Shown here: positions 1,258-18,463 of the stretch, piece by piece
How the letters are laid out: every line of letters starts with the position of its first letter
How positions within the stretch are numbered: the first letter of the stretch is position 1
The notes under the pieces: generated by a model
What the model was told of the DNA's origin: nothing
Database searches by the model: none
Seen by the model: the letters and a program-made list of their open reading frames with translations, nothing else
Assembly: GCA_029555885.1 (NCBI GenBank)
Contig: JAKPQT010000451.1
Span: 1 to 18,463 of the forward strand
Source: Chloroflexota bacterium
GTDB taxonomy: Bacteria > Chloroflexota > Anaerolineae > CG2-30-64-16
Direction of reading: 5' to 3'
Length of the DNA: 18,463 nt
Position numbers and translations under genes: made by a program

Positions 1258-1262
1258 CACGT

Positions 1263-1267: not shown

Positions 1268-1277
1268 ATGTGAGTTG

Positions 1278-1322: not shown

Positions 1323-1342
1323 GGATGCGTCTGGATGAAAAC

Positions 1343-1374: not shown

Positions 1375-1419
1375 CGCACTAACACACCTGGCAGGAATCC
1401 CCTTGAACGGCCGAACGTC

Positions 1420-3342: not shown

Positions 3343-3430
3343 CCTCACCCCATCCCCCTCTCCTGATCTGGGCGAGCGTGCGAACCTTCGGTTCGCCCAG
3401 GTCAGGAGAGGGGAAGTCGAGGGGGTGAGG
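3343..3430. repeat. 88-bp imperfect palindrome between genes
   Basis: Starts directly after the stop codon. The left arm (3343-3386, CCTCACCCC...CCCCTCTCCTGA...GGGCGAGC...GCGAACC) pairs with the right arm (3390-3430, GGTTCGCCC...TCAGGAGAGGGG...GGGGGTGAGG), with small internal loops and a 3-nt tip. CCTCACCCC/CCCCTCTCC palindromes are a dispersed intergenic repeat type in many bacterial genomes. The RNA could fold into a long hairpin and may act as a terminator or 3'-end stabiliser for the upstream gene. It has no U-tract, so intrinsic termination is uncertain. Confidence 0.8.
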
Positions 3431-3453
3431 CCATCGAGCAATGGAACCGTGAC

Positions 3454-4017: not shown

Positions 4018-4032
4018 GGGTGGGCCGGGCGC

Positions 4033-4104
4033 CTGCCTCTACGGTAAAATTGACCGCAGTCAACCAGTATTGCGTGTTATGTTTTCGATATGAGAAAATA
4101 TATG
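4033..4104 (+). repeat. 72-bp direct repeat, copy A
   Basis: Matches 4345-4415 at a constant offset of 312 bp. By hand, the core of about 54 nt has about 43 identities and one gap, including 15 identical bases (GTCAACCAGTATTGC at 4059-4073). It contains TTGAC-CGCA-GTCAA (4050-4063), a perfect dyad. It begins 15 nt after the acetyltransferase stop, in DNA distinctly richer in A/T than its surroundings. Confidence 0.75.
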
Positions 4105-4206
4105 TCAATATCTGGATGCCTGGATCAGTTTAGGTCTAAGCATGCTGAATTCGTCGGATGATGGAGTCTGGTGCTCTTTCGGCTGCGCCGGGCTGTGCCC
4201 TGCTCC

Positions 4207-4249
4207 GCTCAGGATGCGGCTGACCACCGGGGCATCCGGCATCCTGAGC
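4207..4249. repeat. REP-like inverted repeat (GCTCAGGATGC / GCATCCTGAGC)
   Basis: Perfect 11-bp arms at 4207-4217 and 4239-4249 around a 21-nt loop. The flanks (GGGCTGTGCCCTGCTCCGCTC before, GAGCGAGGCC...GGCCGGAGTCGAAGG after) resemble the dispersed CCTGAGCG...GTCGAAGG intergenic repeats seen in many environmental bacterial genomes. Probably a mobile or repetitive intergenic element; no coding. Confidence 0.6.
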
Positions 4250-4344
4250 GAGGCCCCGCCAGGAGGGGCCGGAGTCGAAGGCTGGTCGATGACTTGATCC
4301 GCCAGAATCATCGTGGCTGTGCTTCGTCGGCCCGAATGGAGCAT

Positions 4345-4415
4345 CTGCCCGTATAGGAAATCTGACTATGGTCAACCAGTATTGCATGTTGTGTTTTGAA
4401 GTGAGAGAAGATATG
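4345..4415 (+). repeat. 72-bp direct repeat, copy B, directly upstream of surE
   Basis: Second copy of the 4033-4104 sequence, ending 13 nt before the surE ATG. The dyad survives as TGAC-TATG-GTCA (4363-4374). Its place just before surE suggests it carries the surE control region, duplicated when the intervening DNA was inserted or amplified. That is inference. Confidence 0.7.
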
Positions 4416-4428
4416 CCAGAGTCAAACC

Positions 4429-5265
4429 ATGCGCCCTGTTGAACTGACCCGCGAACGCCCGTTGATCCTGCTGACCAACGACGACGGCATCCAGTCGCCC
4501 GGCCTGCACGCCGCGGCGGAGGCGCTCTGCGACCTGGGCGAGCTGCTGATCGTCGCACCCGCCGAACAGCAGACTGGCATGGGCCGGGCCATGCCCGCGC
4601 TGAGCGGCGACGCGCAATTGGAGGCAAGCCGCCTCACGCTCACCTGCCAGGACGTGCAGGTCTACACCATCACGGCATCACCGGCGCAGGCCGTGCTGTT
4701 TGGGGTCCTGGCAATCGTTCAGCGGCGGCCCGCGCTCGTGGTCTCCGGCATCAATCACGGCGAGAACCTCGGCACCACCGTGACCTCCTCCGGCACGGTC
4801 GGCGCAGCGCTGATGGCTGCAGAGCTGGGCATCCCCGGGCTGGCCGTATCCTTCAAGACGGATGCGGCCTACCACTTCGGCTACGCGCACGAGCTCGACT
4901 GGACTGCCCCAGCGCACTTCACCCGTCTGTTCGCGCGCGCCATGCTCGGTGCGCAACTTCCGTTCGACGTGGACGTACTTAAAGTAGATGTCCCCGGTGA
5001 GGCCACCGCGGAGACGCTATGGCGCATCACGCGCCAGTCCAAGCAGCCCTACTACCAGTCGCTGGCGCCGGAACAGCGTTTCGGGGTGGGGCCGCTGCGC
5101 ACGCTGGATTATCGCATCCTCATTCATTGGGACACGCTGGAGCCGGACTCGGACATCTCGGTTTTTGCACGTGACCGCCTTGTATCGGTCACTCCGTTGA
5201 GTCACGACCTGACAGCGCGGACCGATCTGGCCGCGCTGGAGGGGCTGTTGAAGGGGCAACCATGA
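4429..5265 (+). CDS. surE: SurE-family 5'-nucleotidase
   Basis: Metal-dependent phosphatase acting on nucleoside 5'/3'-monophosphates in the cytoplasm. Seen: LLTNDDGIQSPGL with the metal-binding Asp pair (D18, D19), the APAEQQTG loop in place of the usual DRxxSG-type loop, and SGINHGENLGTTVTSSGTVG with the metal-ligand Asn (N109) and the TVGAAL helix. 278 aa, slightly longer than typical (about 250). The loop Ser ligand appears replaced by Thr (T49). The ATG at 4429 has only a weak AGAG 7 nt upstream. The stop overlaps the start of the ABC ATPase by 4 bp (ATGA), so translation is probably coupled. A nucleotidase leading an ABC-2 exporter operon is an unusual arrangement. Confidence 0.92.
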   Translation: MRPVELTRERPLILLTNDDGIQSPGLHAAAEALCDLGELLIVAPAEQQTGMGRAMPALSGDAQLEASRLTLTCQDVQVYTITASPAQAVLFGVLAIVQRRPALVVSGINHGENLGTTVTSSGTVGAALMAAELGIPGLAVSFKTDAAYHFGYAHELDWTAPAHFTRLFARAMLGAQLPFDVDVLKVDVPGEATAETLWRITRQSKQPYYQSLAPEQRFGVGPLRTLDYRILIHWDTLEPDSDISVFARDRLVSVTPLSHDLTARTDLAALEGLLKGQP

Positions 5266-6248
5266 TTCGCACCGAAGCATTGAGCAAGCATTTCCAGGCG
5301 GATGGCCGCACGATCAAGGCAGTGGACGGGCTGGACCTCCAGGTGGCCGAGGGAGAGGTATTCGGCTTCCTGGGCCCGAACGGCGCAGGCAAGACGACCA
5401 CCGTGCGCCTGCTCACCTGCCTGATCGGTCCCAGCGCGGGCCGTGCATGGGTCAACGGGCGGGCGGTGGGCCAGGCCGACCGGCAAATCCGGCAGCAGGT
5501 TGGCATTCTCACCGAGTCGCCCGGCCTGTACGAGCGGCTGAGCGCGCAGTACAACCTTAGCGTCTTCGCTGAGCTGTATGGCGTTCGGGATGTGCGCGGC
5601 CAGGTCGAGAAGTATCTGCGGCTGCTGGACCTGTGGGATCGCCGCGACACCGAGGCGGGGACGTTCTCGAAGGGCATGAAGCAGAAGCTCGCGATTGCGC
5701 GCGCCCTGCTGCACGAGCCGCCGGTCGTGTTCCTGGATGAGCCGACCGCAGCGCTCGATCCGGAGGCGGCCAAGACGGTCCGTGACTTCATCGAGACGCT
5801 CCGCGGCCAGGGCCGCACCATCTTCCTCTGTACGCACAACCTGGACGAGGCCGAGCGGCTGTGTGACCGCATCGGTGTGTTCAAGCAGCGTCTCATCGCG
5901 GTGGATACGCCGGACGCGCTGCGGCGGCAGTTGTTTGGCCGCCAGACGGTCGTGCACCTCGTCCCGCCCGCGGACCGCGGTGCGTTGCAGCAGTGGGCGG
6001 GCGTGGTGGCCGGGCTGCCCGATGTGCAGCACGTGGAGCCGCTGCCCGCGTCTGCGGATGACCCCGCACATGCTGACCGCCTCGTCATCAGTTTGGCTGA
6101 CCCGCCCGCGCAGAACCCGGCCATCGTGCGCACCCTGGTGGCGCAGGGCGCCGAAGTGCAGTTCGTCAACGAGGTCAAGCACTCGCTGGAGGATGTCTAC
6201 CTGAGCCTGATCCACAACGGCGGGAGTAATGCGGGAGGTGCAGCATGA
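5262..6248 (+). CDS. ABC transporter ATP-binding protein (ABC-2 type exporter)
   Basis: Couples ATP hydrolysis to transport through the permease encoded next. All motifs are present: Walker A GPNGAGKT (38-45), the Q-loop region GILTESPGLYERLSA, signature FSKGMKQ (135-141), Walker B VVFLDEPTAALDP (155-167) and the H-loop FLCTHNLDEAERLC. A C-terminal extension of about 100 residues, as in CcmA/NatA-like drug, Na+ or lipid exporters, probably contacts the permease. 328 aa. The start overlaps surE and the stop overlaps the permease gene, each by ATGA, giving a tight three-gene operon. Substrate not predictable. Confidence 0.95.
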   Translation: MIRTEALSKHFQADGRTIKAVDGLDLQVAEGEVFGFLGPNGAGKTTTVRLLTCLIGPSAGRAWVNGRAVGQADRQIRQQVGILTESPGLYERLSAQYNLSVFAELYGVRDVRGQVEKYLRLLDLWDRRDTEAGTFSKGMKQKLAIARALLHEPPVVFLDEPTAALDPEAAKTVRDFIETLRGQGRTIFLCTHNLDEAERLCDRIGVFKQRLIAVDTPDALRRQLFGRQTVVHLVPPADRGALQQWAGVVAGLPDVQHVEPLPASADDPAHADRLVISLADPPAQNPAIVRTLVAQGAEVQFVNEVKHSLEDVYLSLIHNGGSNAGGAA

Positions 6249-7036
6249 AGGCGGTACGCACGATTATCCTGAAGGAATGGGCCGATATCCGGCGCAACAA
6301 GCTGGTGTTCTCAGTAGTCATCGGCGTGCCGCTGCTGATGGTGTTGATACCTGTCGTCATGCTGTTCATCATGAGCCGTGCGCCGGTGGACTCGCGCGAC
6401 CTCGAAGAGTTGAGCCGCATGTTGCAGAACACGCTCTTCACGGGCATGGACGGCCGTGAGGCGCTCCAGGCCGCGATGGCGAGCAACTTCATGATCCTGT
6501 TCCTCATGATGCCCTTGATGGTGCCCGTCACGATTGCCGCGTACAGCATCGTGGGCGAGAAGATCACGCGCTCGCTGGAGCCGCTGCTGGCGACGCCCGT
6601 CTCGACCGCGCAACTGCTGCTCGGCAAGGGGCTGGCCGCAGCGCTGCCGGGCATCGTGATGACGTGGTTCAGCTATGCAGTGTTCCTGGTGTTTGCCCGG
6701 CTCTTTGCGGTCAGCGACCGGGTGTTCAGCGTGTTCGTCAATCCCATGTGGCTGATCGCGATGTTCGTGCTGTCGCCGCTCCTGACAGTGATGGCCGTGA
6801 ACGTGGGCATCATCGTCAGCAGCCGCACCTCGGACCCGCGCGCGGCCGAGCAGCTCGGCAGCCTGATCATTCTGCCGCTCATGGTGCTGTTCATCGGCGT
6901 GATGGCCGGCTTTATCATGCTCAGCTCTACAACCTTCTGGCTGAGTTCGTTGATTGTTCTGGTGCTCGATGCAGGCCTGCTGTACCTGGGCGTGACCCTG
7001 TTCCAGCGGGAGACCATCCTGACGCGTTGGAAGTAG
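6245..7036 (+). CDS. ABC-2 type transporter permease
   Basis: 263 aa with about six hydrophobic segments: after residue 20, around the LFLMMPLMVPVTIAAYSI span, and then four more. The amphipathic coupling segment EKITRSLEPLLATPVS is diagnostic of ABC-2 permeases such as NatB/YhaP-like proteins. A good Shine-Dalgarno (GGGAGGTG, 6233-6240) lies before the ATG, which overlaps the ATPase stop by 4 bp. It forms the membrane part of an exporter with the preceding ATPase. Its stop codon abuts a degenerate palindromic repeat (7037-7060). Confidence 0.92.
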   Translation: MKAVRTIILKEWADIRRNKLVFSVVIGVPLLMVLIPVVMLFIMSRAPVDSRDLEELSRMLQNTLFTGMDGREALQAAMASNFMILFLMMPLMVPVTIAAYSIVGEKITRSLEPLLATPVSTAQLLLGKGLAAALPGIVMTWFSYAVFLVFARLFAVSDRVFSVFVNPMWLIAMFVLSPLLTVMAVNVGIIVSSRTSDPRAAEQLGSLIILPLMVLFIGVMAGFIMLSSTTFWLSSLIVLVLDAGLLYLGVTLFQRETILTRWK

Positions 7037-7060
7037 CAGGACGGGTTGGCAGCCCATCCC
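7037..7060. repeat. Degenerate copy of the GGACGGGTTG palindrome
   Basis: CAGGACGGGTTGG followed by CAGCCCATCCC: arms pair in about 8 of 10 positions. It starts directly after the permease stop and resembles the perfect element 70 bp downstream. Confidence 0.6.
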
Positions 7061-7106
7061 CCAGGGGTATGATGTCCTCCCGGCGCGCGATGGCTGGCGA
7101 TAACTT

Positions 7107-7133
7107 GTAGGACGGGTTGCCAACCCGTCCTAC
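7107..7133. repeat. Perfect 13-bp palindrome GTAGGACGGGTTG-C-CAACCCGTCCTAC
   Basis: Two 13-bp arms (7107-7119 and 7121-7133) around a single base. This GTAGGACGGGTTG palindrome is a dispersed intergenic element type in many environmental bacterial genomes. It could form a stable hairpin at the 3' end of the surE-ABC transcript; there is no U-tract. Confidence 0.8.
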
Positions 7134-7160
7134 GCTGGCCTGTCCCCCTCCCCCGCGCGG

Positions 7161-7189
7161 TTGCCGCGCGCACCATTTTGGCGTACACT
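7161..7189 (+). promoter_or_regulatory. Probable sigma70-type promoter for the DUF5671 gene
   Basis: TTGCCG (7161-7166), a 17-nt spacer and TACACT (7184-7189). Predicted transcription start is near 7196, leaving a leader of about 46 nt to the ATG at 7242. This also argues against using the upstream in-frame TTG at 7161 as a start codon. Confidence 0.5.
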
Positions 7190-7241
7190 ACCTGCGTGCT
7201 CATCCCGCAGAAGCCATAATCAACATACGGGAGTCATGCCA

Positions 7242-9425
7242 ATGACTGTTCGGCGCTCACTCTATGTAGTGGCCTTCGCCGGGCTGCTGCTCTTCGTGGC
7301 CGGGTTGCTGCTGGCCGTGCGCAGCAGCTCCGGGGGCTGGACCGGCGGAATTGCTCTGGCCGATGTGCCAGCGGCATTGATGGGGAGTATCCCCTGGCTG
7401 GCGTTGGCGCTTGTCGGGGTGATCGTCTTCGGCGTCGCCTGGGGCATGACGAACCGCGGCGCGCGGCCGCTGACGCTGGCAGGCGCGGCCGAACGCGGAT
7501 TGCCGGCGCGCAAGGCGACCCTGTACATGGGCCAACTGCTGCTGCTGGCTGCGGCAGTGGCGTTCGCGGTGCTGATGTTGCGCGGCGCGGCCCTGCAGCT
7601 CTTCGCAGGGCTGGGGTTAGGCCCCGACGAGGCGCCACCCGGCTGGCCCGTCGCGCAGGCCCTGGTCGCGCTTCTGAGCCTGCTGGCCTGGGGCTATCTG
7701 CGCTACGAGACGCTGCGCGACGATGACTTGGGCCGCGAGCAGGGGCCGGCCGTCGGCTGGCGGCGGGCCTACACCTATCTCGCCGCGCTCGGCGGGTTGG
7801 CGCTCAGCGTGGGCGGCATGGGCGAATTCATCCGTTCGGTGATCGCCCTGGGCATCCAGCCGCTCGCGCCGGACGCGCCGTGGCGCGTGCCGATGGCCGG
7901 TGCGGTCGCCGCGCTGGTGGTGGGCGTGCCGCTGGCTGCAATGGCGTGGCGCTGGTCCACCCGCGGCGCCGCGGCGCGGCCCGCGCCGGAGATGAATGCA
8001 TTGAGCCGCGTGCTGCTGCGCTACGCCGCGCTACTGGCCGGCGCGCTCGTCACACTCCTGGCGCTCGGCTACCTCATCCATGACGTGATTCTGCTCATCC
8101 TCGGCCAGCGCGCAGGCCAGTGGTGGGGCCATGCCCTCGCGTATTTCCCGCCCATGCTGGTGCTTTGGCTCACCTTCAGCAGCGGTATCCAGGGGGATCG
8201 GGCGCGCGGCGGCGAAAGCCCGCGCACCGCCCGCATCCGCCGGGTTGTGCGGTACACGATCACCGCGCTGGCGCTGGCTGCGTTCTGGCTCGGCTTGACC
8301 GAAGTCGCGCGGCTCGTGTTGCAGATGGCGCTGGCGCGGCAGGCGGGCAATGTCGAGTTGGATGCAGCCTGGCGGGGGCGTTTCGCGCTCGCGACCGCGC
8401 TGGTGCTGGTCGGCGCCCCGGGCTGGTGGGGTCACTGGTGGCCTTTGCATGTGCGCGCGCGGCTCAACACGCCGGGCGGCCACAACGAGCGTGCATCGGG
8501 CATTCGGCGGGTCTACCTGTTCGCCGTGGTGTTGATCGGCGCGGCCGTGCTGGTGTTCTCGCTTGGGTTCGGCGTCTTCCTGGGCCTGAATCTCGATGGC
8601 GTGACCACCGTGGGTGGCGTGCTGGGCGCGCTGGCGGGTGCAATTGCGGGCGCGGCGATCGCCCTGGTGTGGGCGGCCTCACATGCGCTGGTCTTGCGGG
8701 GAGACGAGCGACTGCTGACGCGCGACGCGGCTGAGGCGGAGCGCCAGCGTGCGTACAAGCCGCCGGTCGTCGCTGCGAGCGTCGTGCCTGCTGCACCGGC
8801 TGTCGCGCAATCGCCGGTTTCCCCGCCCGCGGTCGAGCCCCTTGCGCAGCCCGTCGCGGCGGGTGCGCCCCTCCGCTACCGACGGGAGGACCTGCCCTCC
8901 CTGTTGCCGGCCGCTGCTTCCCTGACGGCTGAAATCGAGAGCATTGCGCCGACTCCCACGGAGTCGGCGTCTGCCGCGGCCGGAGAGCCGGTGCATGCTG
9001 TCGCAGTTGTGGATGGCGCGAACGGTGTGGCAGGTGCGGCCCTGGTCGCCGGGCTGCGCCGCGCGCTGCCCGACCTGGTCATCTGGCCGGTCGGCCTGAA
9101 TGCCGCCGCGCAGGTGGAGATGCTGGCCGCGCTGGGCGACGGCACGCCGCCCGCCGTGCCCGCGACCGCGTTGGGGACTGTTTCGCTCATCCTCGGCCCT
9201 GCCGATATTGTGACGCCCGGCGGCATGGACGGCGAGGTGACGGATGAGATATTCGCGGCCATCAGCGCCAGCCCGGCCACGGTATTCCTGCTGCCGCCGC
9301 GCGATGCACGGCTCCAGTGGATTGCCGTGCCCGAATGGTCGCTGGCACAGTGGGTCGACCATGCCGTCGTGGAGGTGCAGCAGGCGTTCGGCATGCTGCC
9401 GCCTGAGCCAGCGCCCGAGATTTAG
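7242..9425 (+). CDS. DUF5671 multi-span membrane protein with C-terminal DUF3842-like domain
   Basis: 727 aa. The first 500 or so residues form repeated membrane units of the DUF5671 type. Each has paired helices followed by a short Trp/His-bearing loop, for example GAPGWWGHWWPLHVRARLN, then IRRVYLFAVVLIGAAVLVF. A Pro/Ala/Val-rich linker (about residues 507-582) leads to a soluble domain (about 584-717): VHAVAVVDGANGVAGAALV, VIWPVGLNAAAQ, VSLILGPADIVTPGGMDGEVT and ATVFLLPPRD. This is the order and spacing I recall for DUF3842 (VIDGQGGGIG... GTNxxAT... GPIGIxxxNxMxGExTP... IPL). Function unknown for both parts. The ATG at 7242 is chosen because GGGAG (7229-7233) lies 8 nt upstream; the ATG at 7236 is only 2 nt from it. 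Confidence 0.85.
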   Translation: MTVRRSLYVVAFAGLLLFVAGLLLAVRSSSGGWTGGIALADVPAALMGSIPWLALALVGVIVFGVAWGMTNRGARPLTLAGAAERGLPARKATLYMGQLLLLAAAVAFAVLMLRGAALQLFAGLGLGPDEAPPGWPVAQALVALLSLLAWGYLRYETLRDDDLGREQGPAVGWRRAYTYLAALGGLALSVGGMGEFIRSVIALGIQPLAPDAPWRVPMAGAVAALVVGVPLAAMAWRWSTRGAAARPAPEMNALSRVLLRYAALLAGALVTLLALGYLIHDVILLILGQRAGQWWGHALAYFPPMLVLWLTFSSGIQGDRARGGESPRTARIRRVVRYTITALALAAFWLGLTEVARLVLQMALARQAGNVELDAAWRGRFALATALVLVGAPGWWGHWWPLHVRARLNTPGGHNERASGIRRVYLFAVVLIGAAVLVFSLGFGVFLGLNLDGVTTVGGVLGALAGAIAGAAIALVWAASHALVLRGDERLLTRDAAEAERQRAYKPPVVAASVVPAAPAVAQSPVSPPAVEPLAQPVAAGAPLRYRREDLPSLLPAAASLTAEIESIAPTPTESASAAAGEPVHAVAVVDGANGVAGAALVAGLRRALPDLVIWPVGLNAAAQVEMLAALGDGTPPAVPATALGTVSLILGPADIVTPGGMDGEVTDEIFAAISASPATVFLLPPRDARLQWIAVPEWSLAQWVDHAVVEVQQAFGMLPPEPAPEI

Positions 9426-9430
9426 CCACA

Positions 9431-9462
9431 ACCACGGAACACACGGATTACGCGGAGGGATC
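9431..9462 (+). repeat. Short dispersed repeat, copy 2 (related to 1343-1374)
   Basis: ACCACGGAACACACGGATTACGC-type sequence in the 60-bp gap before corA; 26 of 32 positions match the minus strand at 1343-1374. It resembles the ACCACGGATTACACGGATT-type low-complexity intergenic repeats seen in various bacterial genomes. Confidence 0.5.
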
Positions 9463-9475
9463 ATCTTTGCCATCT

Positions 9476-9480
9476 GGAGG
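9476..9480 (+). promoter_or_regulatory. Ribosome binding site of corA
   Basis: GGAGG 5 nt before the GTG at 9486; it supports the GTG start of the CorA-family gene. Confidence 0.7.
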
Positions 9481-9485
9481 CGCGC

Positions 9486-10541
9486 GTGCACACGCTAATT
9501 GTGCTCAAGGGCCGGTCGTTCAAGCACAACCTGCCGCTGACCGATATCAGCGACCTGCTGGCCGCACCCAACACCATCGTATGGCTGGACATCCAGAACC
9601 CCACGGATGCGGATGTGGCGCTGCTGGCGGAGGAGTTCGGCTTCCATCCCCTTGCCATCGAAGATGCCACCCGCTCGCACGAACGCCCGAAGGTGGATGC
9701 CTATCCGTCTGCGGAGTCTCTGGAGGAGGAAGCGCCGGAGGCTGCGGCAGCGCCTGCGTCAGTCGAGGAGCCGGATGAAGCCGTGCCGGCGTCCGGCGGT
9801 TACTACTTCGTCGTCTTCTACGAGGCCGCGTTCGATCCGGCAGAAGATCGGATTGTCACCGAAGCCATTAACCTGTTCATCGGGGCCAACTATCTGGTCA
9901 CGGTTCACCAGGGCGATATCCGCCACGTCAAGGAAACACTGGCGCGTTGGCAGACGCCCAACAGTCCGCTGGGCAACAGTGTGGCCGCGCTCGTCCATGC
10001 GCTGCTTGATTCGATCGTGGATGACTACTTCCCGCTGATGGATCGGGTGGCCGACCGGGTGGAGGACCTGGAGGACGCCATTTTCGTGCATTACGAGGAG
10101 GAGTCCATCCAGACGATGTTTGGCCTGAAGCGGGACCTGTTGAGCCTGCGCCGCGTGGTTGCGCCGGAGCGCGATGTGCTGAATGTGCTGCTGCGCCGCG
10201 AGCTGCCCATCTTCCGCCCGGCCGATCTCGCCTATCTGCAGGATATCTACGACCACCTGGTGCGGGTCACCGACAATATCGACACCTATCGCGACCTGCT
10301 ATCGAGTGCACTGGACAGCTATCTGTCGCTGCAATCCAATAATTTGAATCAGGTCGTCAAAATATTAACGATTGCATCAATAATATTGATGGCGGCCAGC
10401 CTGATCGCCGGCATCTACGGTATGAACTTCGTGCACATGCCCGAACTGCAATGGCGGCTCGGCCACGGCTTTGCCATCCTGCTGATGATCATCGTCACTG
10501 CCGGGCTGGTGATTTACTTCAAGCGCAAGCGCTGGCTGTAG
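9486..10541 (+). CDS. corA: CorA-family Mg2+/Co2+ channel
   Basis: Pentameric inner-membrane divalent-cation channel. 351 aa from a GTG start. Seen: N-terminal cytosolic domain with HPLAIEDATRSHERPKVDAY, a long helical stalk (VHALLDSIVDDYFPLMDRV onwards), two membrane helices at the C-terminus, and the selectivity motif YGMNFVHMPE (GMN at 312-314) between them. The end, YFKRKRWL, is a usual basic tail. Two oddities: an acidic Glu/Ala/Pro-rich insert (about residues 74-105) between DAY and YYFVVFY, absent from typical CorA proteins; and a strongly A/T-rich stretch (10332-10390) encoding the conserved SNNLNQVVKILT segment and first membrane helix. It may be co-transcribed with the DUF5671 gene 60 bp upstream. 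Confidence 0.95.
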   Translation: MHTLIVLKGRSFKHNLPLTDISDLLAAPNTIVWLDIQNPTDADVALLAEEFGFHPLAIEDATRSHERPKVDAYPSAESLEEEAPEAAAAPASVEEPDEAVPASGGYYFVVFYEAAFDPAEDRIVTEAINLFIGANYLVTVHQGDIRHVKETLARWQTPNSPLGNSVAALVHALLDSIVDDYFPLMDRVADRVEDLEDAIFVHYEEESIQTMFGLKRDLLSLRRVVAPERDVLNVLLRRELPIFRPADLAYLQDIYDHLVRVTDNIDTYRDLLSSALDSYLSLQSNNLNQVVKILTIASIILMAASLIAGIYGMNFVHMPELQWRLGHGFAILLMIIVTAGLVIYFKRKRWL

Positions 10542-10574
10542 AACCATTAAGAGCAACCCGCAGCGAATTGGACC

Positions 10575-10592
10575 GCCGAGCACCAGCTCGGC
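10575..10592. terminator. Hairpin between convergent corA and nuclease genes
   Basis: GCCGAGC-ACCA-GCTCGGC: a perfect 7-bp G/C-rich stem with a 4-nt loop in the 52-bp gap, ending directly before the nuclease stop. Its position fits a bidirectional terminator. There is no U-run on either side, so it may need Rho or act only as a 3'-end stabiliser. Confidence 0.55.
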
Positions 10593-10593
10593 A

Positions 10594-13026
10594 TCAGTCT
10601 GGCGACCAGAAGCTTCCCACCGCGCCGCTCACAGCCCCCACCAACGCATCGCTCACCCCGGTCCGCCTGAACGCAAAGCGCACGAACAATGGATCATGGT
10701 CGGAGCTGCGCAGGCTCGTCGTATCGGGCGTCAGCTTCTCCGGGAAGTCCGCATTGATGTGTACCGGCCCGCCTGCGAGATAGTACGCATCGAGGCCAGG
10801 GGTGGCAACGAAGTGATCCAGCACCTCGGCACGGCCGTCATAGATGTAGGTGTAGCGATCCGCCGGCGGGACATAACGTGCAAAGAGGTTGACTTCACCC
10901 CCAAACTGCGCCAGCGTGTCAGATGCCAGCAGGTCGTTGAAATCGCCCAGCGCAACCGCGTTCGGTTCCGCATCCGCCGCGGCCAGCAGCCCGGCCACGA
11001 ATGCCGCCTGCAGGACGCGGCGGGGTGCATTGTCGGCCTCGTCCCCGCGCTTGGACTTGAAGTGATTGACGATGACGCGCACTTCGAGTGCCCGGTCGCC
11101 GCGTGCGTTGCGCACGACCAGGTCGGCCACGTAGGGCGGCCGGTCGAACAGCGGGTAGGTGTCCGCGTCGCAGGGATTCGCGGTTGCGCGCGGCCCGCGG
11201 GCGGCTGTGTAATCCACGCCGTAGTCGGTCGGCGTGCAGGTTTGCGCTGATGCGCTCCGCCGCAGCTCGACGCGTCGAGTATCGTAGAGCAGGCCCACGG
11301 TGATGTCCCGGAAGTCCGCACTCTCGTAGTAGTCATAACGATAGCGCGGCCCCGCGGCCGCCGCCAGCGCAGCCCACACTGCGTCCTTCCCCTCGATCTC
11401 CTGCAGCCCCACAACCGTGCAGCCTTGCAGGTTCTGCCGGATGGCTGCGGCCCGTTTCGCCAGTTGCGCCTGAAACTCGCCCAGGCTCGCCGGCGACCAG
11501 TCGCCCACGTCACCGTCGCCGTCGTCCACTGCGTCGAACAGGTCCAGCACATTGAACGAGCAGATGGCGAATTCGTCCGGGCCGATGGCGCGCTCCGCAG
11601 CCGCGGGATCGGGCAGGTCCGTCACCTTGAGCCGCGTAGGGTCATCGACCAGCAGGACGTACCGGCCAAACTGGAAGGCCAGGATGCCCGTCAGACCGGT
11701 CGCGGTAATCTGATCCAATGTGCCGGCCAGGGGCAGGTCCACGCCTAGCCCGCCCGACAATGCAATGCTGCCCCGGCCTTCAGGCAAGAGAGGCGCCTGC
11801 TCAAGCGCGGCCGACTCCGCAAACACGCGCCGGCCGTAGAACGGGCTGCCCCGGTCCAGCAGGACAATCTCGGGGTCGCCGGCGGGGTAGCGGGAGGCAT
11901 AGCGGTGCGTCGGGCCGATGACCGAACCGTCGAAACTCAGGCTGACCCGCATCCCCTCGAACCGTTCGTAAGTCGCGGCCGGGTCCGCGGCCGGGTCGCC
12001 CGGCGGCGGGATCGGGCCGGGCGCGGGCAGCGGGCAGCGGCCTATCGTCCGGTAGGAGGCAGTCGTGTCATCGGACAGGCCGACAATCTCCGTCTGGCCG
12101 TAGAACTCCTGCACGCGGAAGTCGTGCAGTTCGACGAGCGTGCCCGGCGTGAGGTTGCGCGGGTTCTGCCAGGTCGTGTAGCGAAAGACGAAGATGCCGT
12201 CGGAGGTGGCCGGGTTTGCATCCGCCGCGGGATCCTGCAGGAAGAAGCCGTCCGCAGTCACGCCGGTCACGCAGCCGGCGAGCCGTCCGAAGGTCGTCTC
12301 TGCATCATAGGGTGTGGCTGCGGTTGTGCCCTGAAGTTGCGCAATCGTCACCGCGGGGCGGGCCGCGACACTGCACGGGCCGGGCCGGATATCCGCCTGG
12401 CTGCGCGGCCAGACCTGCGCGCCATCGTAGTCCGCGCTCAGGCCGCTGACGGTGGCCGGGCAGCCGTTCTGCAGACCCGCAGTAGACAGCCCCAGCCGCT
12501 CGGTGAGGTAGATGAGTGTGCCGCCGACGCGGAAGCGCCGTTCGCTCAGGCGGGAGACCGGTCCGCTGAGCTGCACGAGCCGGCCCTCCGTGGCCTCGCC
12601 CACCTGGCTGGGCTGCACAACCTGGGGGACAGGGGGAGCGCCCGTGCCCAGTCGGATGACCTGCGCGGGGTTGCCCGGCACAATCTCACGCAATCCGTGA
12701 TGCTCAGCCAGCCGCCCGCTGACGCAGACCGCGTCGCCCGCGGCCAGCGCTTGTCCCACACCGCGACCGGCATAGACATAAATCCCGCCGCCGGCATCCT
12801 GCAGGGCGAAGGACTGCCGCTCGGTGAACACGCCGGTGGGCACGCTGACGACGCCTTGAACGGTTACTTCCGTGTCGAGCGGCCGGGTGCGCGCCTCGGG
12901 AATCGGGATGGCCCCGGCGCAGGTGTTCTGCGCCGCTGCGGGAGGCTGTATAGGCAGCATGAGCGAGAAGGCGATGACAATCAAGCCAATGATGATCGGG
13001 GCGACGGTGCGCGGGCAGTGGAGCAT
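10594..13026 (-). CDS. Secreted endonuclease/exonuclease/phosphatase-superfamily nuclease (ExeM/NucH-like)
   Basis: 810 aa. N-terminal signal peptide: basic start MLHCPRT, hydrophobic IIIGLIVIAFSLML, likely cleavage after PPAAA (about residue 32). Residues about 40-450 hold beta-rich OB-fold-like modules (TVQGVVSVPTG, SFALQDAGGGIYVY, LQNGCPATVSGL, FFLQDPAADANPATSDGIFV), as in large extracellular nucleases. The C-terminal third is the catalytic domain: SFNVLD (N492), GLQEIEG (E543), NHFKSK (H655), GDFND (D695, N697) and SSDHDP (H777), a full metal-dependent EEP set. Likely degrades extracellular DNA or hydrolyses phosphoesters. The start at 13026 is preferred over 13083: GAGG lies 6 nt upstream and the signal peptide then begins correctly. 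No membrane anchor is seen at the C-terminus. Confidence 0.9.
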   Translation of the reverse strand: MLHCPRTVAPIIIGLIVIAFSLMLPIQPPAAAQNTCAGAIPIPEARTRPLDTEVTVQGVVSVPTGVFTERQSFALQDAGGGIYVYAGRGVGQALAAGDAVCVSGRLAEHHGLREIVPGNPAQVIRLGTGAPPVPQVVQPSQVGEATEGRLVQLSGPVSRLSERRFRVGGTLIYLTERLGLSTAGLQNGCPATVSGLSADYDGAQVWPRSQADIRPGPCSVAARPAVTIAQLQGTTAATPYDAETTFGRLAGCVTGVTADGFFLQDPAADANPATSDGIFVFRYTTWQNPRNLTPGTLVELHDFRVQEFYGQTEIVGLSDDTTASYRTIGRCPLPAPGPIPPPGDPAADPAATYERFEGMRVSLSFDGSVIGPTHRYASRYPAGDPEIVLLDRGSPFYGRRVFAESAALEQAPLLPEGRGSIALSGGLGVDLPLAGTLDQITATGLTGILAFQFGRYVLLVDDPTRLKVTDLPDPAAAERAIGPDEFAICSFNVLDLFDAVDDGDGDVGDWSPASLGEFQAQLAKRAAAIRQNLQGCTVVGLQEIEGKDAVWAALAAAAGPRYRYDYYESADFRDITVGLLYDTRRVELRRSASAQTCTPTDYGVDYTAARGPRATANPCDADTYPLFDRPPYVADLVVRNARGDRALEVRVIVNHFKSKRGDEADNAPRRVLQAAFVAGLLAAADAEPNAVALGDFNDLLASDTLAQFGGEVNLFARYVPPADRYTYIYDGRAEVLDHFVATPGLDAYYLAGGPVHINADFPEKLTPDTTSLRSSDHDPLFVRFAFRRTGVSDALVGAVSGAVGSFWSPD

Positions 13027-13122
13027 GGCTGGCCTCGTGGTGGGTTGCCCTCCCATCAAAGCACAATACCCCGAGAAGCGCAAACGCGACTGTCTGCCTT
13101 TGCCCGTCTACCAGTTACCCTG

Positions 13123-13131
13123 TGATATAAT
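13123..13131 (+). promoter_or_regulatory. Extended -10 promoter for the GH-A-like gene
   Basis: TGA-TATAAT: a perfect -10 hexamer (13126-13131) with the TGn extension, in the 168-bp divergent gap. No good -35 at 16-18 bp, which extended -10 promoters can lack. Predicted start is near 13138, a leader of about 57 nt. No clear promoter for the opposite (nuclease) gene was found. Confidence 0.6.
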
Positions 13132-13184
13132 GCCAACATTATCCGGCTGCCCGTGCATGGCCGCGGCCGGTTCCTGCCATCTCT

Positions 13185-13189
13185 GGAGG
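13185..13189 (+). promoter_or_regulatory. Ribosome binding site deciding the start of the GH-A-like gene
   Basis: GGAGG 5 nt before the ATG at 13195. It favours 13195 over the in-frame ATG at 13156 and the GTG at 13153, which would place this site inside the gene. Confidence 0.7.
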
Positions 13190-13194
13190 CCCTG

Positions 13195-16100
13195 ATGCGA
13201 CTAGCAGATTTCCCTCGTCCGAAAAACGATAACCGGCGCGGCGTCCACTGGTCCGCGTCAGTCTACCATCCCGGCGGTGGGGCGCTCGACTTCTGGATCT
13301 CCGAGCTTCAGGCCATGAAGATCAAGTGGGTGAAGGTGCTGGATGATGGCGGCGGGTCATCGTTCGAGCTATGCCAGCGCCTGCTCGCCGCGGATATCAT
13401 GCCGGTCGTCCGTCTCTTCCGCATCGAGCCCAACCCTGGCTCCATCGGGGGCCGCGAGGAGGATACCATCCGCCGGATGGTCGCGGCGGGCGTGCGCTAT
13501 TTCGAGACCAACAACGAGCCCGACCTGCCCATCGAATGGAAGGGCGGCAAGATGCCGTCCAACTGGCTCGACGTGGTGATCGACAACTTTATCATCGACG
13601 CCGACAAGGTGATTGCGCTGGGTGGCCTGCCCGCGCTGCCCGCGATGGGCGTGGGCAGTCGGGTCAACCCGATCGCGGAAGTTGTCAAGCGGGGCCGGGC
13701 CGACCTGTTCGACAACGGCGCGTGGGTAGCGATCCACAACTACACGATCAACCACCCGCTGGATTATCCCTATGATCCGGTCAACCAGGAGGGCCAGCCC
13801 GTCAGCCAGGAGGAGTACGACCGGCTGGGCCAGTGGGCCTGGGAGGGCCGGCCGCGCGAGCAGATCAACGAGTGGCGGCAGTCGGACAAGAACCCCGGCG
13901 ACACGCTGGAGGATGACGCGACCTGCTTCCTCGCCTTCCATCTGATGGATCAGATGATCCAGCAGGCCCTGGGCCATCCTGTGCCCATCATCAGCACGGA
14001 AGGCGGGCCAGTCGTCGGCTGGAAGGAAGACCGCCGCTATCCGCGCGTCGATCCCAACACGCACGCCGAGTGGGTCGTCCAGATCGCGGAGTTCATGCAG
14101 GGCACGCGCGAGATTCACGGGATGCCGTGCTCGGACAGTTACTTCTCCATGTGCCACTGGCTCATCGCGAACTACCGCATGGGCTATCTTGCGCCCACGT
14201 GGGAAAGCAACTCCTGGTACACGGACTGGTGGAACGGCGATTTCGAGCTGACCGGCGAGTTGCCCGTCGTTGCGCGGCTGAAGGCGTTGCCCGATGTGGT
14301 GCCCGGCCCGGTCGATCGAGCCGTGGTTGCCGGCCGCGTCCTCCGCGCAGACACCGACGCGGGCCTGCCGGACCTCACCGTCAAGCTGCTCCAGGCGGAC
14401 CGCGAGATCAAGAGCGCGATCACCGGGCCGGACGGCGCCTTCCGGATCGAGGGTTTGGCGGTCGGCGTCTATGACATTGCAATTGTGCCCTGGGGCATCG
14501 TGCGCCGCGGGGTCAGCGCGGTCGAGGAGATCCCGGGCGGCACGCTGCCGTCCGTCACCCTCCGGCTCAGCGGCGGGCAGAACAGCATCCTCACGGGCAG
14601 CGTGCAGAGCGCCGCGGGCGCGCCGCAGGCGAATGTCCGCGTCAGGCTGGCCCGTAGCGGCGTGCAGGTCGGTGAAATGGTCACCGGTGCAGACGGCGCG
14701 TTTCGCTTCGCAGCCTTGCCGCTGGGCTCTTACCGGCTCGACATTCCGGGCATCACGGTCGCGGGCATTGCGCTGGACGGCTGGCAGACGAAGAACCTGC
14801 GCCTGACGGCTGGTGTCGCCGGGCAATACCGCTACGGCGTCGTGCAGCGGCGGCTGCTGCCCGAAGATGAGACCGCGGGCCGGCGCATCTTCTACGGCAC
14901 GGTCACGGATGCCAGCGGCGCGCCGCTGAACGGCGTCAAGCTGCGGATGGCCTGGAGCGGTGCGGCACCGGGCACGGACTTCCCGACCACGACGACCGGC
15001 CGCGACCCGTACAAGCCTGCAGGTTCCTACGAGTTCGTGCACAGCCCCGGCACATTTAACCTGCAGGTGGTGCAGGGCGACTGGCCGAGCGACCTGGCCG
15101 CGGATCTGGAAACAGCCAAAGTCCCCGGTCGCGAGGGCCAGGCCATCACCTACGAGGTCAACTTCCGGCTGCAGGCGGTCGGCGCGCCGGCGCAAGTGGA
15201 CGGCGTGGTGGCGGGCGGCGCGGCGGACGCGCTGCTGACGCTGACTGCGGCGGATGACACGGTGCGCACGACGCGGCTGGCCGCTGACGGCAGCTTTGTC
15301 TTTCCCAATCTGCCCGCGGGAACCTATCGGCTGTCCCTGGCCGGCATCGGCGAGATTGCCGCGGGGATCGTGCTGGAGCCGGGTGCGTTGTTCAAGCTGC
15401 TCTTCCCCATGCGCAGCCGCCTCTCGGGTCACGTCGTCGATGCAGGCGCGCCCGCGCCGGATGGCCTGGTCGCAGTGTTGTACGCGCCCGCGCCCTGGGG
15501 CTGGACGCGGCAGGCGCCGCTCGACCCCAGCGGCAACTTCGCCATCGACAACCTCCCCGCGGGCAGCTACCGGCTGGAGGTCAACGGGCTGATGCTGCCC
15601 GACCTAGTGCTGAACGGCGAGAACGAGCTGAAGCTGGCCGTGCTCGACCTGAGCCAGGGCCAGCGCAGCATCGTGCGTGGCCGCGTGGCCGACGGTGCAG
15701 GCCGGCCCCAGGCCGATGTACTGATGACCCTCCGGCGCGATGGCATCCTGGTCGCGCAGGCCCGCACGGATGCCGCGGGTTTCTACCGGTTCGTCAAGCT
15801 GCCCGCCGGGAGCTACCTGCTGGAGGCGGTGGGCCTGGGCCAGGTGGCCGCCTTCCTGCTCGACGGCGAGCGACAGGAGGTGGCGGATGTGCTCTGGCCG
15901 CTGCCCGGCCCGCGCGGGATCCTGCAGGGCCATGTCCGGGATGCAGCGGGCGCGCCCGTCTCCGGCGTCTGGGTGCGCCTGCTGGCCGCAGGCGGCGAGG
16001 TCGCGCGCGTGCAGACCGACCTGACCGGCGCCTTCCGCTTTGCCGAACTGCCCGGCGGGGTCTATGCGCTGGCGCTCATCGAAGGGGAGCCGCTGGTTAC

Positions 16101-16473
16101 GGGCATCGTGCTGGACGAGGATGCGCTGGTCACACGCGATGTCATGCTGCCGCCCGCGCCGGTCAGGCTGCTCGGCCATTACCTGCTGTTGGCCCCGCCG
16201 CCGGAGCCTGGCGCCGCGGGCCATGCCGAGGCGCGGATGCTGCTGGCCCTGGTGTCGCAGCACGTCGCGCGGGCAGCCGGCAGCATCAGCGCCGGCTACA
16301 GCGTCACCGACGCGGCCAACGCGGGCCGTGCGACCATTGTGGGCGACAACGTGCCGCCGGATGTCGAAGCGACGCTGCGGGCTGCGGAATGCCAGGTGAG
16401 CCGGCTGTCCGGCGACGGGTATGCAGTCGCGGCGGGCCTGGCGCAGCTTTTTGCCGAGGGGGTGAACTCATGA
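13195..16473 (+). CDS. Clan GH-A-like glycosidase with seven transthyretin-like repeats and a C-terminal domain shared with the next gene
   Basis: 1092 aa. Residues 1-370 look like a TIM-barrel glycoside hydrolase: RGVHWSASVYHPGGG, WVKVLDDGG, FETNNEPDL (E108, candidate acid/base at a beta-4-like position) and PIISTEGGPVVG (E269, candidate nucleophile). Spacing and motif type fit clan GH-A; no specific family can be named. Seven carboxypeptidase-regulatory/transthyretin-like beta modules follow, starting near 377, 463, 563, 666, 741, 824 and 908, with refrains such as TGPDGAFRIEGLAVGVYDI and LPAGSYLLEAVGLG. Residues 992-1092 (LLGHYLLL... ATIVGDNVPPDVEATL... VSRLSGD) match the C-terminus of the next protein. 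I see no signal peptide, yet the architecture suggests an envelope-facing role. The stop overlaps the next start by ATGA. Confidence 0.8.
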   Translation: MRLADFPRPKNDNRRGVHWSASVYHPGGGALDFWISELQAMKIKWVKVLDDGGGSSFELCQRLLAADIMPVVRLFRIEPNPGSIGGREEDTIRRMVAAGVRYFETNNEPDLPIEWKGGKMPSNWLDVVIDNFIIDADKVIALGGLPALPAMGVGSRVNPIAEVVKRGRADLFDNGAWVAIHNYTINHPLDYPYDPVNQEGQPVSQEEYDRLGQWAWEGRPREQINEWRQSDKNPGDTLEDDATCFLAFHLMDQMIQQALGHPVPIISTEGGPVVGWKEDRRYPRVDPNTHAEWVVQIAEFMQGTREIHGMPCSDSYFSMCHWLIANYRMGYLAPTWESNSWYTDWWNGDFELTGELPVVARLKALPDVVPGPVDRAVVAGRVLRADTDAGLPDLTVKLLQADREIKSAITGPDGAFRIEGLAVGVYDIAIVPWGIVRRGVSAVEEIPGGTLPSVTLRLSGGQNSILTGSVQSAAGAPQANVRVRLARSGVQVGEMVTGADGAFRFAALPLGSYRLDIPGITVAGIALDGWQTKNLRLTAGVAGQYRYGVVQRRLLPEDETAGRRIFYGTVTDASGAPLNGVKLRMAWSGAAPGTDFPTTTTGRDPYKPAGSYEFVHSPGTFNLQVVQGDWPSDLAADLETAKVPGREGQAITYEVNFRLQAVGAPAQVDGVVAGGAADALLTLTAADDTVRTTRLAADGSFVFPNLPAGTYRLSLAGIGEIAAGIVLEPGALFKLLFPMRSRLSGHVVDAGAPAPDGLVAVLYAPAPWGWTRQAPLDPSGNFAIDNLPAGSYRLEVNGLMLPDLVLNGENELKLAVLDLSQGQRSIVRGRVADGAGRPQADVLMTLRRDGILVAQARTDAAGFYRFVKLPAGSYLLEAVGLGQVAAFLLDGERQEVADVLWPLPGPRGILQGHVRDAAGAPVSGVWVRLLAAGGEVARVQTDLTGAFRFAELPGGVYALALIEGEPLVTGIVLDEDALVTRDVMLPPAPVRLLGHYLLLAPPPEPGAAGHAEARMLLALVSQHVARAAGSISAGYSVTDAANAGRATIVGDNVPPDVEATLRAAECQVSRLSGDGYAVAAGLAQLFAEGVNS
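16456..16463 (+). promoter_or_regulatory. Ribosome binding site of the 440-aa gene, inside the preceding gene
   Basis: GAGGGGGT 6 nt before the ATG at 16470, within the last codons of the GH-A-like gene. With the ATGA overlap this points to coupled translation. Confidence 0.6.
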
Positions 16474-17792
16474 GCCTTTCCGTACGCCTCGGGCGGTTCT
16501 TCGGCCGGCGCAACATGAGCACGCCGCTGCCTGAACGTGCTGCCATGTCGTCCGCTCCCCGCGAGGTCATCAACGACGCGCAAGCCTATGGCGTCGAGAT
16601 CAAGCCGGTTGCGGTCGCGCCGGGCGGCTGGTACTGGCAGGTTGTCCGCGTGCATCACCTCACGCCGGAGGAAAATGGCGGCAACCACCATATCTACATG
16701 GACATCCTCGACCCGGCGATCGGCGACGGCAGCAACCCGAACGGCGGCCGCGTCTACGGCGCGCGCGCCCGCGTAACGTGGGATGGCGGCGAGCAGCTCG
16801 TGACCGTGGACAAGCCCGCGAACGAGCCGGGTACCAACTTCCCGATGTGGAAGTGGCAGGTGTGCGCAGCCGAGGCGCTCGGCCTGCCGGGGCTAGAGCT
16901 GCCCTCGGATCGCGTGACGGGCATGCACACCGGCCATCCCGATGAGGCGCCCGGCAACACCCTGTTCCACCACTCGTTCAGCATCACCTTCGTCAAGGTG
17001 CAGGCCCCGCTGACCATCTATCGCGACAGCGTCATCTACGGGGTGATTTACAACGGCGCCGGGCGCACCGCGCGGCTGCTGGAGGGCGAACGTACCGTGA
17101 CCGAGCAGGTCATCGGCAGCGACGAGACCTTCCGCTTCGTGGAACTGGCCGCGGGAGATTACCTGCTCGAAGTGGTGGGCGCCGGCCTGCGTTCGGCGCC
17201 GGTCCACCTGGACGGACGCAACCAGGTTCAGCTTGAGCTGACCGTCGTCCTGGCCGAGAGCGTCATCCGCGGCCGTGTGCGCAACGGCGTCGGCCGCACC
17301 GTGACCCTCACGCGCGGCGAGACAGCCGTGGCATCTCAGGCCGTCGCGTCGGATGAAACCTTCCACTTCAGCGAGCTGCCGGCAGGCGCGTACCGGGTCG
17401 CGGTGGACGGCGTGGGCGTCATCTCCGACTTGCTGACGGTGGATGGCCGGAACTCGGTCGCGGTGGACCTGTTCGTGCCGCCCGCGGGCAAGCTGCTCGG
17501 CCACTATCTCCTGTTGGGGCCGGCCGGCCAGCCTGCAACCCAGGCCAATCTCGTGCTGGCCCAGGAATTCATCCTGGCCTTCCGGCCGACCTTCGGCTTC
17601 AGTGCGGAGGAGGCCGCGGCCGCGGGCATGGTGACGATCCTCGCCGGGACGGATGCCGTTGATGAGCAGACTGCGGCCGGGCTCGCCGCGGACGGCACGC
17701 CAGTGCAGCGCATCGCCGGCACGGTCGAGCAAGTGGCGCAGGCGTTGGCCGCGCGGGTCGCCAGCGGTCAGCCGTTCGGACAGACGCAGTAA
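16470..17792 (+). CDS. Unrecognised His-rich N-terminal domain with two transthyretin-like repeats and the shared C-terminal domain
   Basis: 440 aa; ATG overlaps the previous stop (ATGA), with GAGGGGG about 6 nt upstream. The in-frame upstream frame from 16389 lies inside the preceding gene and is not used. Residues 1-180: after a basic start (SVRLGRFFGRR), an unidentified domain with WYWQVVRVHHLTPEENGG, NHHIYMDILD, VTWDGGEQLVTVDKP, FPMWKWQV and HTGHPDEAPGNTLFHHSF. Residues 181-341: two shortened beta repeats (GRTARLLEGERTV..SDETFRFVELAAGDYLLEV and its partner with SDETFHFSELPAGAYRVAV). Residues 342-440: the domain shared with the GH-A-like protein (LLGHYLLLGP... FGFSAEEAAAAGMVTILAG... VQRIAGT). 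Probably works with that protein on the same substrate or surface. No signal peptide or catalytic motif recognised. Confidence 0.8.
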   Translation: MSLSVRLGRFFGRRNMSTPLPERAAMSSAPREVINDAQAYGVEIKPVAVAPGGWYWQVVRVHHLTPEENGGNHHIYMDILDPAIGDGSNPNGGRVYGARARVTWDGGEQLVTVDKPANEPGTNFPMWKWQVCAAEALGLPGLELPSDRVTGMHTGHPDEAPGNTLFHHSFSITFVKVQAPLTIYRDSVIYGVIYNGAGRTARLLEGERTVTEQVIGSDETFRFVELAAGDYLLEVVGAGLRSAPVHLDGRNQVQLELTVVLAESVIRGRVRNGVGRTVTLTRGETAVASQAVASDETFHFSELPAGAYRVAVDGVGVISDLLTVDGRNSVAVDLFVPPAGKLLGHYLLLGPAGQPATQANLVLAQEFILAFRPTFGFSAEEAAAAGMVTILAGTDAVDEQTAAGLAADGTPVQRIAGTVEQVAQALAARVASGQPFGQTQ

Positions 17793-17802
17793 CACATGGC
17801 CT

Positions 17803-18463
17803 ATGCCTGATTCTCTCTCCCGGCCCATGCCGCGCTGGTTGGTGCCGGTTGTGTTGGCCCTGGTCACGGCGCTCGCGGCGTTCCTGCGCTACTGGCAGCT
17901 CGACACAATCCCGCCCGGGTTCCATTACGATGAGGCGTATGAGGCGCTGGAAGCCTGGCGGGTGCTGACGCAGCCTGGCTATCGTCCCGTATTCTTCACC
18001 GGCAACTTCGGCGTCGAGCCGATGTTCATCTACCTGACGGCCATCGCGTTCCGGCTGTTCGGCGCCGCGCCGGAGGTCATGCGCGGGGTCGGCGCGGCTG
18101 TCGGAACCGTTACCGTCCCCGCGCTCTACCTGTTGGCGCGCGAGTGGGTGCGGTTGGACCGTCGGCTGCCGCCCACGCTGCCGCTGCTGGCCGCGCTGGC
18201 ATTGGCAGTCCAACGGTGGCACATCACTTTCAGCCGCATGGGCATCGAGCCGATCCTCGTGCCGTTGTTCCTCGTCCTGCTGCTGTGGGCTTTTGTCCGT
18301 GCGGTGCGCACTGGCAGCCGGTGGGCGTGGATCGGCTTCGGGCTGACCGCGGGCCTCGGCGCGTATACGTATCCGGCGGGGCGGCTGCTGCCAGTCCTGG
18401 CTGCGCTGCTGGGCGTGTTCGCGCTCGTTCGTGCTGCGGGACCCGAGCATCCTGAGCGGAGGT
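17803..18463 (+). CDS. GT39/ArnT-like membrane glycosyltransferase, N-terminal part (cut by window end)
   Basis: The frame is open to the right edge; 220 codons are visible. It starts MPDSLSRPMPRWLVPVVLAL, with a first membrane span and then RYWQLDTIPPGFHYDEAYEA. The Asp-Glu in HYDEA is the conserved first-loop acidic motif of GT-C dolichyl/undecaprenyl-phosphate sugar transferases (families 39/83, PMT_2). Further motifs typical of these proteins: FFTGNFGVEPMFIYL, RGVGAAVGTVTVPALYLLAR, HITFSRMGIEP and GAYTYPAGRL. Probably transfers a sugar from a polyprenyl-phosphate donor to an envelope acceptor. It starts 10 bp after the 440-aa gene and is likely in the same operon. No clear Shine-Dalgarno before the ATG at 17803; the in-frame ATG at 17827 is the alternative. 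Confidence 0.88.
   Translation, partial: MPDSLSRPMPRWLVPVVLALVTALAAFLRYWQLDTIPPGFHYDEAYEALEAWRVLTQPGYRPVFFTGNFGVEPMFIYLTAIAFRLFGAAPEVMRGVGAAVGTVTVPALYLLAREWVRLDRRLPPTLPLLAALALAVQRWHITFSRMGIEPILVPLFLVLLLWAFVRAVRTGSRWAWIGFGLTAGLGAYTYPAGRLLPVLAALLGVFALVRAAGPEHPERR

Follow-up and report, generated by a model that had tools for sequence, protein, structure and literature searches.

The window analyzed here, an 18,463-nucleotide stretch of a Chloroflexota bacterium genome (GenBank assembly GCA_029555885.1, contig JAKPQT010000451.1, positions 1 to 18,463 of the forward strand), contains two overlapping genes, called A and B, that may encode a glycosidase and its accessory partner at the cell wall. 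We refer to the N-terminal domain of A, which resembles glycoside hydrolase (GH) family 39, as A_N, to the N-terminal domain of B as BN, and to the C-terminal domain found in both proteins as CT. Loci from public contigs are numbered with the prefix L, and genomes from a sample of 400 Chloroflexota genomes with the prefix G. The original prediction, made from the window alone, held that the two genes overlap by 4 bp and share a repeat type and a C-terminal domain, with unrelated N-terminal domains, one of which has glycosidase-like catalytic glutamates. The open reading frames overlap as predicted, through the sequence ATGA. Gene A starts with the ATG at 13195, and the beginning M-x-x-x-[DE]-[FY]-P-R-P is also found in its relatives.

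Features of the A/B locus and its flanks. Positions are those of the window.
Feature	Position	Strand	Length or basis
Gene A: GH39-like barrel, seven transthyretin-like repeats and CT	13195..16473	+	1092 aa
Predicted (beta/alpha)8 barrel of A (residues 1-372), GH39 among the closest folds	13195..14310	+	
E108 codon, predicted acid/base, NNEP motif after strand 4	13516..13518	+	conservation, predicted barrel position
E269 codon, predicted nucleophile, TEGG on strand 7	13999..14001	+	conservation
Seven transthyretin/CarboxypepD_reg-like repeats of A	14311..16170	+	PF13620, 7 stretches
CT domain of A (CWB2-like)	16171..16473	+	35% identity to CT of B; CT hidden Markov model (HMM)
Gene B: His-rich all-beta BN, two repeats and CT	16470..17792	+	440 aa
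BN domain of B	16560..17021	+	46-row alignment
Two transthyretin-like repeats of B	17028..17480	+	AlphaFold2 (AF2) model (m38c5bb8f268d), structural matches
CT domain of B (CWB2-like)	17469..17792	+	model, CT profile, alignment to CT of A
GT-C (PMT_2) glycosyltransferase, cut by window end	17797..18462	+	Pfam PMT_2
ExeM/NucH-like nuclease, evident signal peptide, below NCBIfam cut-off	10594-13026	minus	

The predicted secondary structure of A_N is that of a (beta/alpha)8 barrel with clan GH-A-type glutamates at E108 and E269. E108 would lie just after strand 4, at the position of the acid/base, and E269 on strand 7, at that of the nucleophile, so that the predicted layout is the one that defines clan GH-A. 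A single search found 560 proteins of the A_N type, and E108, H181 and E269 are conserved in 119 of the best 120, the remaining protein being gapped. The best Foldseek match of A was PslG. Structural alignment of A to GH39 structures gave 9-17% identity, and the lower GH39 rows tied with GH164 and GH1. Sequence comparisons did not assign A to a GH family: no GH family in Pfam matched at E ≤ 1, nor did any in NCBIfam. The A_N sequence had no match among solved structures at E ≤ 1, and an A_N profile gave only chance-like matches there (E ≥ 0.29). The transthyretin-like family PF13620 (CarboxypepD_reg) matched the central part of A in seven stretches and above the cut-off (E 2.2e-55, 185.4 bits). 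At one related locus, a second A-like paralogue (L004:15079-18270) lies 3.8 kb downstream of the A/B pair; it carries CT and has an aspartate at the acid/base position (SSDP).

The AF2 model of B, built with 46 sequences, had a pLDDT of 87.4 and a pTM of 0.48. It comprises an all-beta domain at residues ~35-180, which may be a sandwich, two transthyretin-like domains at ~187-336 and a C-terminal alpha/beta domain. The two middle domains match PF13620-type domains in fold and score 22.8 bits against that family, under its cut-off of 32.3. Thus, the repeat type is shared as predicted, with the assignment in B resting on the model and its structural matches. Invariant positions of BN in the 46-row alignment include W56, H63, E68, N69, H156, E159, H167 and H168, and H62, H73 and H74 are at least 90% conserved. 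Most of these histidines are absent from distant members (L072, L044). Because the cluster is not general to BN, metal binding by this domain is only a guess. BN had no Pfam match, and a search against PDB sequences returned a single hit (E 1.3). Its fold is barely probed, since the repeats dominated the results of whole-B searches against the PDB and a viral library. An alignment covering BN more widely proved too divergent for scanning. The profile check proposed for A residues 1-370 and B residues 1-180 pointed to no described family, the best stretches of all Pfam and NCBIfam families listed falling outside these regions. The N-terminal domains are also unrelated to each other, the best local match between them having an E value of only 1.6.

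The C-terminal domains of A and B are 35% identical over 99 columns (BLASTP, E 6e-08 in a single comparison). We built a CT profile from 38 CT sequences, largely those of A and B proteins. The CT of A matches it at 8e-25, a value to be read with the presence of the A sequence in the training set. Against PDB sequences the profile gave 28 matches at E ≤ 10. The eight best of these, with E values from 1.3e-05 to 0.11, are without exception S-layer or Cwp proteins belonging to the CWB2 type, and an unrelated protein comes next at 0.16. The similarity covers the C-terminal half of CT. Judged by sequence, CT appears to resemble CWB2 cell-wall-binding modules, which according to the accessible parts of two reports are usually present in threefold form and bind the polysaccharide PS-II (PMC9045149, PMC8881574).

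To follow the pair beyond the window, we scanned public genome contigs with the B alignment and obtained 38 loci, two of which (L004 and L010) are on one contig. All are titled as Chloroflexota groups except L011, titled only "bacterium", and L030, titled Sulfuritalea. An A_N frame lies directly upstream of B on the same strand in 27 of the 38 loci, with BN starting between -4 and +225 nt from the stop of A (+87 in the window). Five of the 11 unpaired loci are truncated at B or close to it (L001, L005, L006, L022 and L030), leaving 33 testable loci, and the end of a CT is still visible upstream in L001, L005 and L022. Two others have a repeat-plus-CT frame without A_N (L015, L021), one has nothing recognized in its 2.1 kb (L026), and in L035-L037 a CT frame lies farther upstream of BN. 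The CT gene of L037 (7601-11709) has a start that looks GH-A-like by eye, followed by Amidase_2 (Pfam) and CT, and scpA lies between it and the BN gene; the gene clusters of L036 are identical in kind, and the start of its CT frame also looks GH-A-like by eye. A single frame encodes both A_N and BN in L044 (672 aa) and likewise in L108 (1046 aa). Among the 400 Chloroflexota genomes, A_N-type matches (E ≤ 1e-10) were found in 26 and B-alignment matches in 15, many of the latter to CT or repeats only. BN itself was found in five (G002, G191, G095, G368 and G022) and A adjoins it in four; the fifth, G022, has its BN match on one contig and its A_N-type match on another. The two genes thus co-occur in Chloroflexota, as the original prediction had proposed to check, and an arrangement seen again in 27 of 38 loci is more than chance.

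The domains joined to CT and to the GH39-like barrel in other proteins bear on function. Scoring at most 12 candidates per genome, we identified 34 CT frames at E ≤ 1e-6 in the same genome sample, spread over 23 of the 400 genomes. All 34 frames have a second domain: GH39-like in 27, BN in four and Amidase_2 in three, one of the amidase frames (L102) being seen only in part. Partners were assigned by HMM classification and Pfam, and in five frames by an A_N-type match in the same frame (G002:C216, G002:C17, G018:C31, G191:C148 and G191:C250). One chain, L068, combines an intact GH39-like domain with Amidase_2 and CT. A search with a short relative (L061) found 179 proteins, and eight of the 120 listed join a GH39-like domain to PF08486 SpoIID; Pfam confirmed SpoIID in all eight (P0285, P0288, P0306, P0311, P0314, P0321, P0327 and P0339; SpoIID/LytB). 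Amidase_2 and SpoIID act on peptidoglycan, SpoIID being a wall lytic family, and these partners therefore suggest a role at the cell wall.

The computed observations are the domain architecture, the layout of the catalytic residues and their conservation, the pairing of the genes and the relatives' fusions to wall hydrolases. We propose that A and B are the two components of a glycan-processing system docked on the cell wall, in which a glycosidase works with an accessory partner, a reading whose chances we put at about even. A would be a retaining clan GH-A glycosidase, with E108 as acid/base and E269 as nucleophile, that cuts a wall glycan, probably peptidoglycan or a polymer linked to it. 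B would be the partner of A, and its His-rich all-beta BN domain might bind or present this glycan as well, perhaps by way of a metal. The transthyretin-like repeats would serve as spacers in both proteins. CT may dock A and B on a wall polymer, which would bring the two to the same place. The original prediction of a paired enzyme and binding module is partly supported, by the GH-A fold and residues, the unrelated partner, the shared CT, the co-occurrence and the fusions in L044 and L108, and it can be sharpened to a CWB2-like tail and the wall.

The original prediction had also taken the gene context, with a GT-C glycosyltransferase after the pair and a divergent nuclease before it, as a sign of envelope or extracellular polymer work. 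Both genes are present in the window: the downstream gene matches PMT_2 (E 2.4e-10), and the upstream gene is ExeM/NucH-like, with 172.8 bits against a cut-off of 300. Elsewhere in the window, positions 7239-9425 encode a single chain with DUF5671 matches and DUF3842. We compared eight neighbor proteins with the 38 loci by tblastn, the flanks being short in some. At least two of the genes for GT-C, a methyltransferase, GT2 and a DegT aminotransferase lie beside the pair in L001, L005, L007, L009, L012, L014, L015 and L034, with these glycan genes on the opposite strand wholly in L014 and partly in L034. GT-C alone was found in L008, and L029 has one weak GT-C match (29%). GT-C is the first gene of a glycan-assembly cluster in some relatives; the flanks retrieved for L002, L004 and L010 showed no such cluster. 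The nuclease neighbor was found in two of the 38 loci (L002 and L004) and a CorA neighbor in L004 and L009. By these counts the association with GT-C holds for some of the loci and that with the nuclease is marginal. The context seen in the window is not a general rule (glycan genes in nine of 38 loci plus the one weak match).

This context raises the possibility that the pair does exopolysaccharide housekeeping in the manner of PslG, with A trimming or clearing a surface polysaccharide made by the neighboring GT-C, GT2 and DegT genes and B binding it. PslG is the best Foldseek match of A, and the eight loci with two or more glycan genes, together with L008, fit such a role. However, 28 of the 38 loci have no such neighbors in the fetched flanks, some of them short, and L029 has only its weak match. 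Relatives are fused to Amidase_2 and SpoIID, domains whose substrate is peptidoglycan, and this also argues against it. Moreover, PslG has a signal peptide, according to the accessible part of its description (PMC11912335), but none is evident in A. We consider this explanation unlikely.

The family also includes short genes with a GH39-like domain and CT, of which we collected 18 (L054-L062 and L088-L096). ftsZ adjoins nine of them in nine genomes (L062, L088 and L090-L096), and all nine lack the acid/base glutamate. The ftsZ neighbors were recognized by tblastn at 53-100% identity to the FtsZ of L091, which was confirmed by Pfam. Eight others, from eight genomes (L054-L061), adjoin a gene resembling the one for the large TPR protein of L056, a protein with an additional Peptidase_C25 match; five of these eight short genes retain both glutamates. 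L089, a short locus, has neither gene beside it. Both glutamates are retained in six of the 18 short members. From sequence, the ftsZ neighbors, a branch different from that of A, appear to be catalytically dead glycosidase relatives tied to this division gene; we saw no description of such a branch among the literature matches listed.

Several results weigh against a wall-docked enzyme and partner. With respect to docking, the eight CWB2 matches are not independent witnesses because they all belong to one protein family, and single CT-CWB2 stretches are weak (E 0.04 or worse). None of the 38 CT members matches PF04122, and in the genome search the B-type CT of G002 scored 13.4 bits against the PF04122 cut-off of 24.9. 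A and B have one CT copy each, whereas CWB2 typically occurs in three tandem copies. The list of CT partners is biased and a lower bound, since the profile derives mostly from A and B and so few candidates per genome were scored. With respect to pairing, A_N-type frames without an adjoining B occur in G002:C17, G191:C250, G368:C127 and G018. With respect to activity, 12 of the 18 short members have lost a catalytic glutamate and the L004 paralogue carries Asp at position 108, and therefore part of the family is not enzymatic. The last group of results concerns export, for which we took the maximum hydropathy of any 12-residue stretch within the N-terminal 50 residues, a crude measure that is not SignalP. 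Values above 2.0 were found in none of 120 A proteins and in one of 121 B proteins (2.1, marginal), compared with 3.1 for the neighboring nuclease. Similarly, 98 of 100 distinct BN or GH39-like locus frames had no strongly hydrophobic stretch (>2.2) before the domain. The exceptions were L104 and L038, the latter a borderline case whose stretch precedes the conserved start.

The L104 protein (7289-9229, minus strand) is a distant BN-like protein of 646 aa with an evident signal peptide at its start, and a BN domain can therefore be exported. This signal peptide and the tie of GH39 rows with other GH-A families pull in opposite directions on the proposed wall-docked pair. No signal peptide was seen when the N-termini of amidase and SpoIID relatives were examined by reading. 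An amphipathic N-terminal helix of B, considered as a membrane anchor, was not supported: its mean z of 0.43 for 118 proteins exceeds that of an internal stretch of B (-0.96) but not that of the A control (0.66). The lack of an evident signal peptide means either that export of A and B is unusual, that they are released by lysis, or that part of the family is intracellular. The predicted link to the envelope agrees with the CWB2-like CT and the wall-type partners, but an extracellular site is at most putative, given that neither A nor B has an evident signal peptide.

It seems improbable to us, but some of these results would suit, that A and B act in the cytoplasm or at the inner face of the membrane, as a division-linked scaffold or in the recycling of wall fragments. 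The missing signal peptides of A, B and the amidase and SpoIID relatives read would then need no explanation, and the nine short genes beside ftsZ, all without the acid/base glutamate, and ScpA beside the amidase-CT gene of L037 would fit as well. However, the ftsZ adjacency belongs to a branch other than that of A, the amphipathic helix of B is unsupported, and the L104 protein has its evident signal peptide. In addition, transthyretin repeats are typical of exported proteins, and it is hard to see what a domain of wall-binding type would do in the cytoplasm.

A signal-less enzyme with a wall-binding domain also recalls phage endolysins, and the pair might be a domesticated phage lysis or tail module that is freed by lysis or a holin. 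The layout of A and the absence of an evident signal peptide are plausible for an endolysin type. BN is present in two viral contigs, downstream of tape-measure, Dit and minor tail genes in L039 (9950-10588) and of a tail fibre gene in L040 (5936-6535), and the L039 BN sequence used as a query retrieved only its own contig. A further parallel is the Clostridioides difficile phage endolysin CD16/50L, which the accessible part of its report describes as having a simplified CWB2-like domain and holin secretion (PMC9045149). Yet the patterns tried for A_N in viral contigs matched seven stretches, none of them a relative, and located no phage locus for A. No phage genes were recognized among the window frames scanned or, by eye, around the distant pair at L072, whose prophage origin we rejected because its flanks look chromosomal. 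We regard a phage origin as very unlikely.

Returning to the wall-docked pair, a wider proposal can be made, which we hold only tentatively and think doubtful as a whole. GH39-like proteins with a CWB2-like tail and no classical signal peptide would constitute wall-remodelling machinery of Chloroflexota, with active A-B pairs, amidase and SpoIID fusions and dead ftsZ-linked members as its branches. Such proteins would leave the cell by a novel export route, and A-B would be a dedicated hydrolase complex for a phylum-specific wall glycan. To our knowledge, envelope building and division are poorly known in Chloroflexota. The A/B family is large and well conserved. Its catalytic residues can be predicted clearly, A usually comes with B, and the tail they share probably binds the wall. 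Two proteins, two catalytic residues and one docking domain offer direct experimental handles. The family also makes two puzzles testable, namely the absence of an evident signal peptide and the pseudoenzymes beside ftsZ. A single search found 350 B-type proteins, of which 120 were listed, and no descriptive name appeared among the A_N and B matches listed. The literature within reach, which excluded most subscription papers and included the accessible part of PMC6403190, gave no description of the family.

Parts of the system resemble proteins that are already known. A is similar in its predicted fold to GH39 enzymes including PslG of Pseudomonas aeruginosa, but differs in its low identity to that family, its lack of a Pfam GH match and its lack of an evident signal peptide; PslG presumably has no repeats, CT domain or partner gene. 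The wall hydrolase domains Amidase_2 and SpoIID/LytB are joined to CT or GH39-like domains in relatives, but neither is present in A or B themselves. CT is like the CWB2 proteins SlpA, Cwp6 and Cwp8, its best PDB matches, in an alignment of its C-terminal half. Unlike these proteins, A and B carry it as a single copy rather than three, below the Pfam threshold, without an evident signal peptide and in Chloroflexota. CD16/50L, a holin-secreted wall hydrolase whose simplified CWB2-like domain binds a secondary wall polysaccharide, is comparable to L037, L063 and L065. It differs in being a phage gene and in that the accessible part of its report mentions no repeat array or paired partner (PMC9045149). 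Set beside these proteins, the A/B pair would be an unannotated variant of the modular wall hydrolases.

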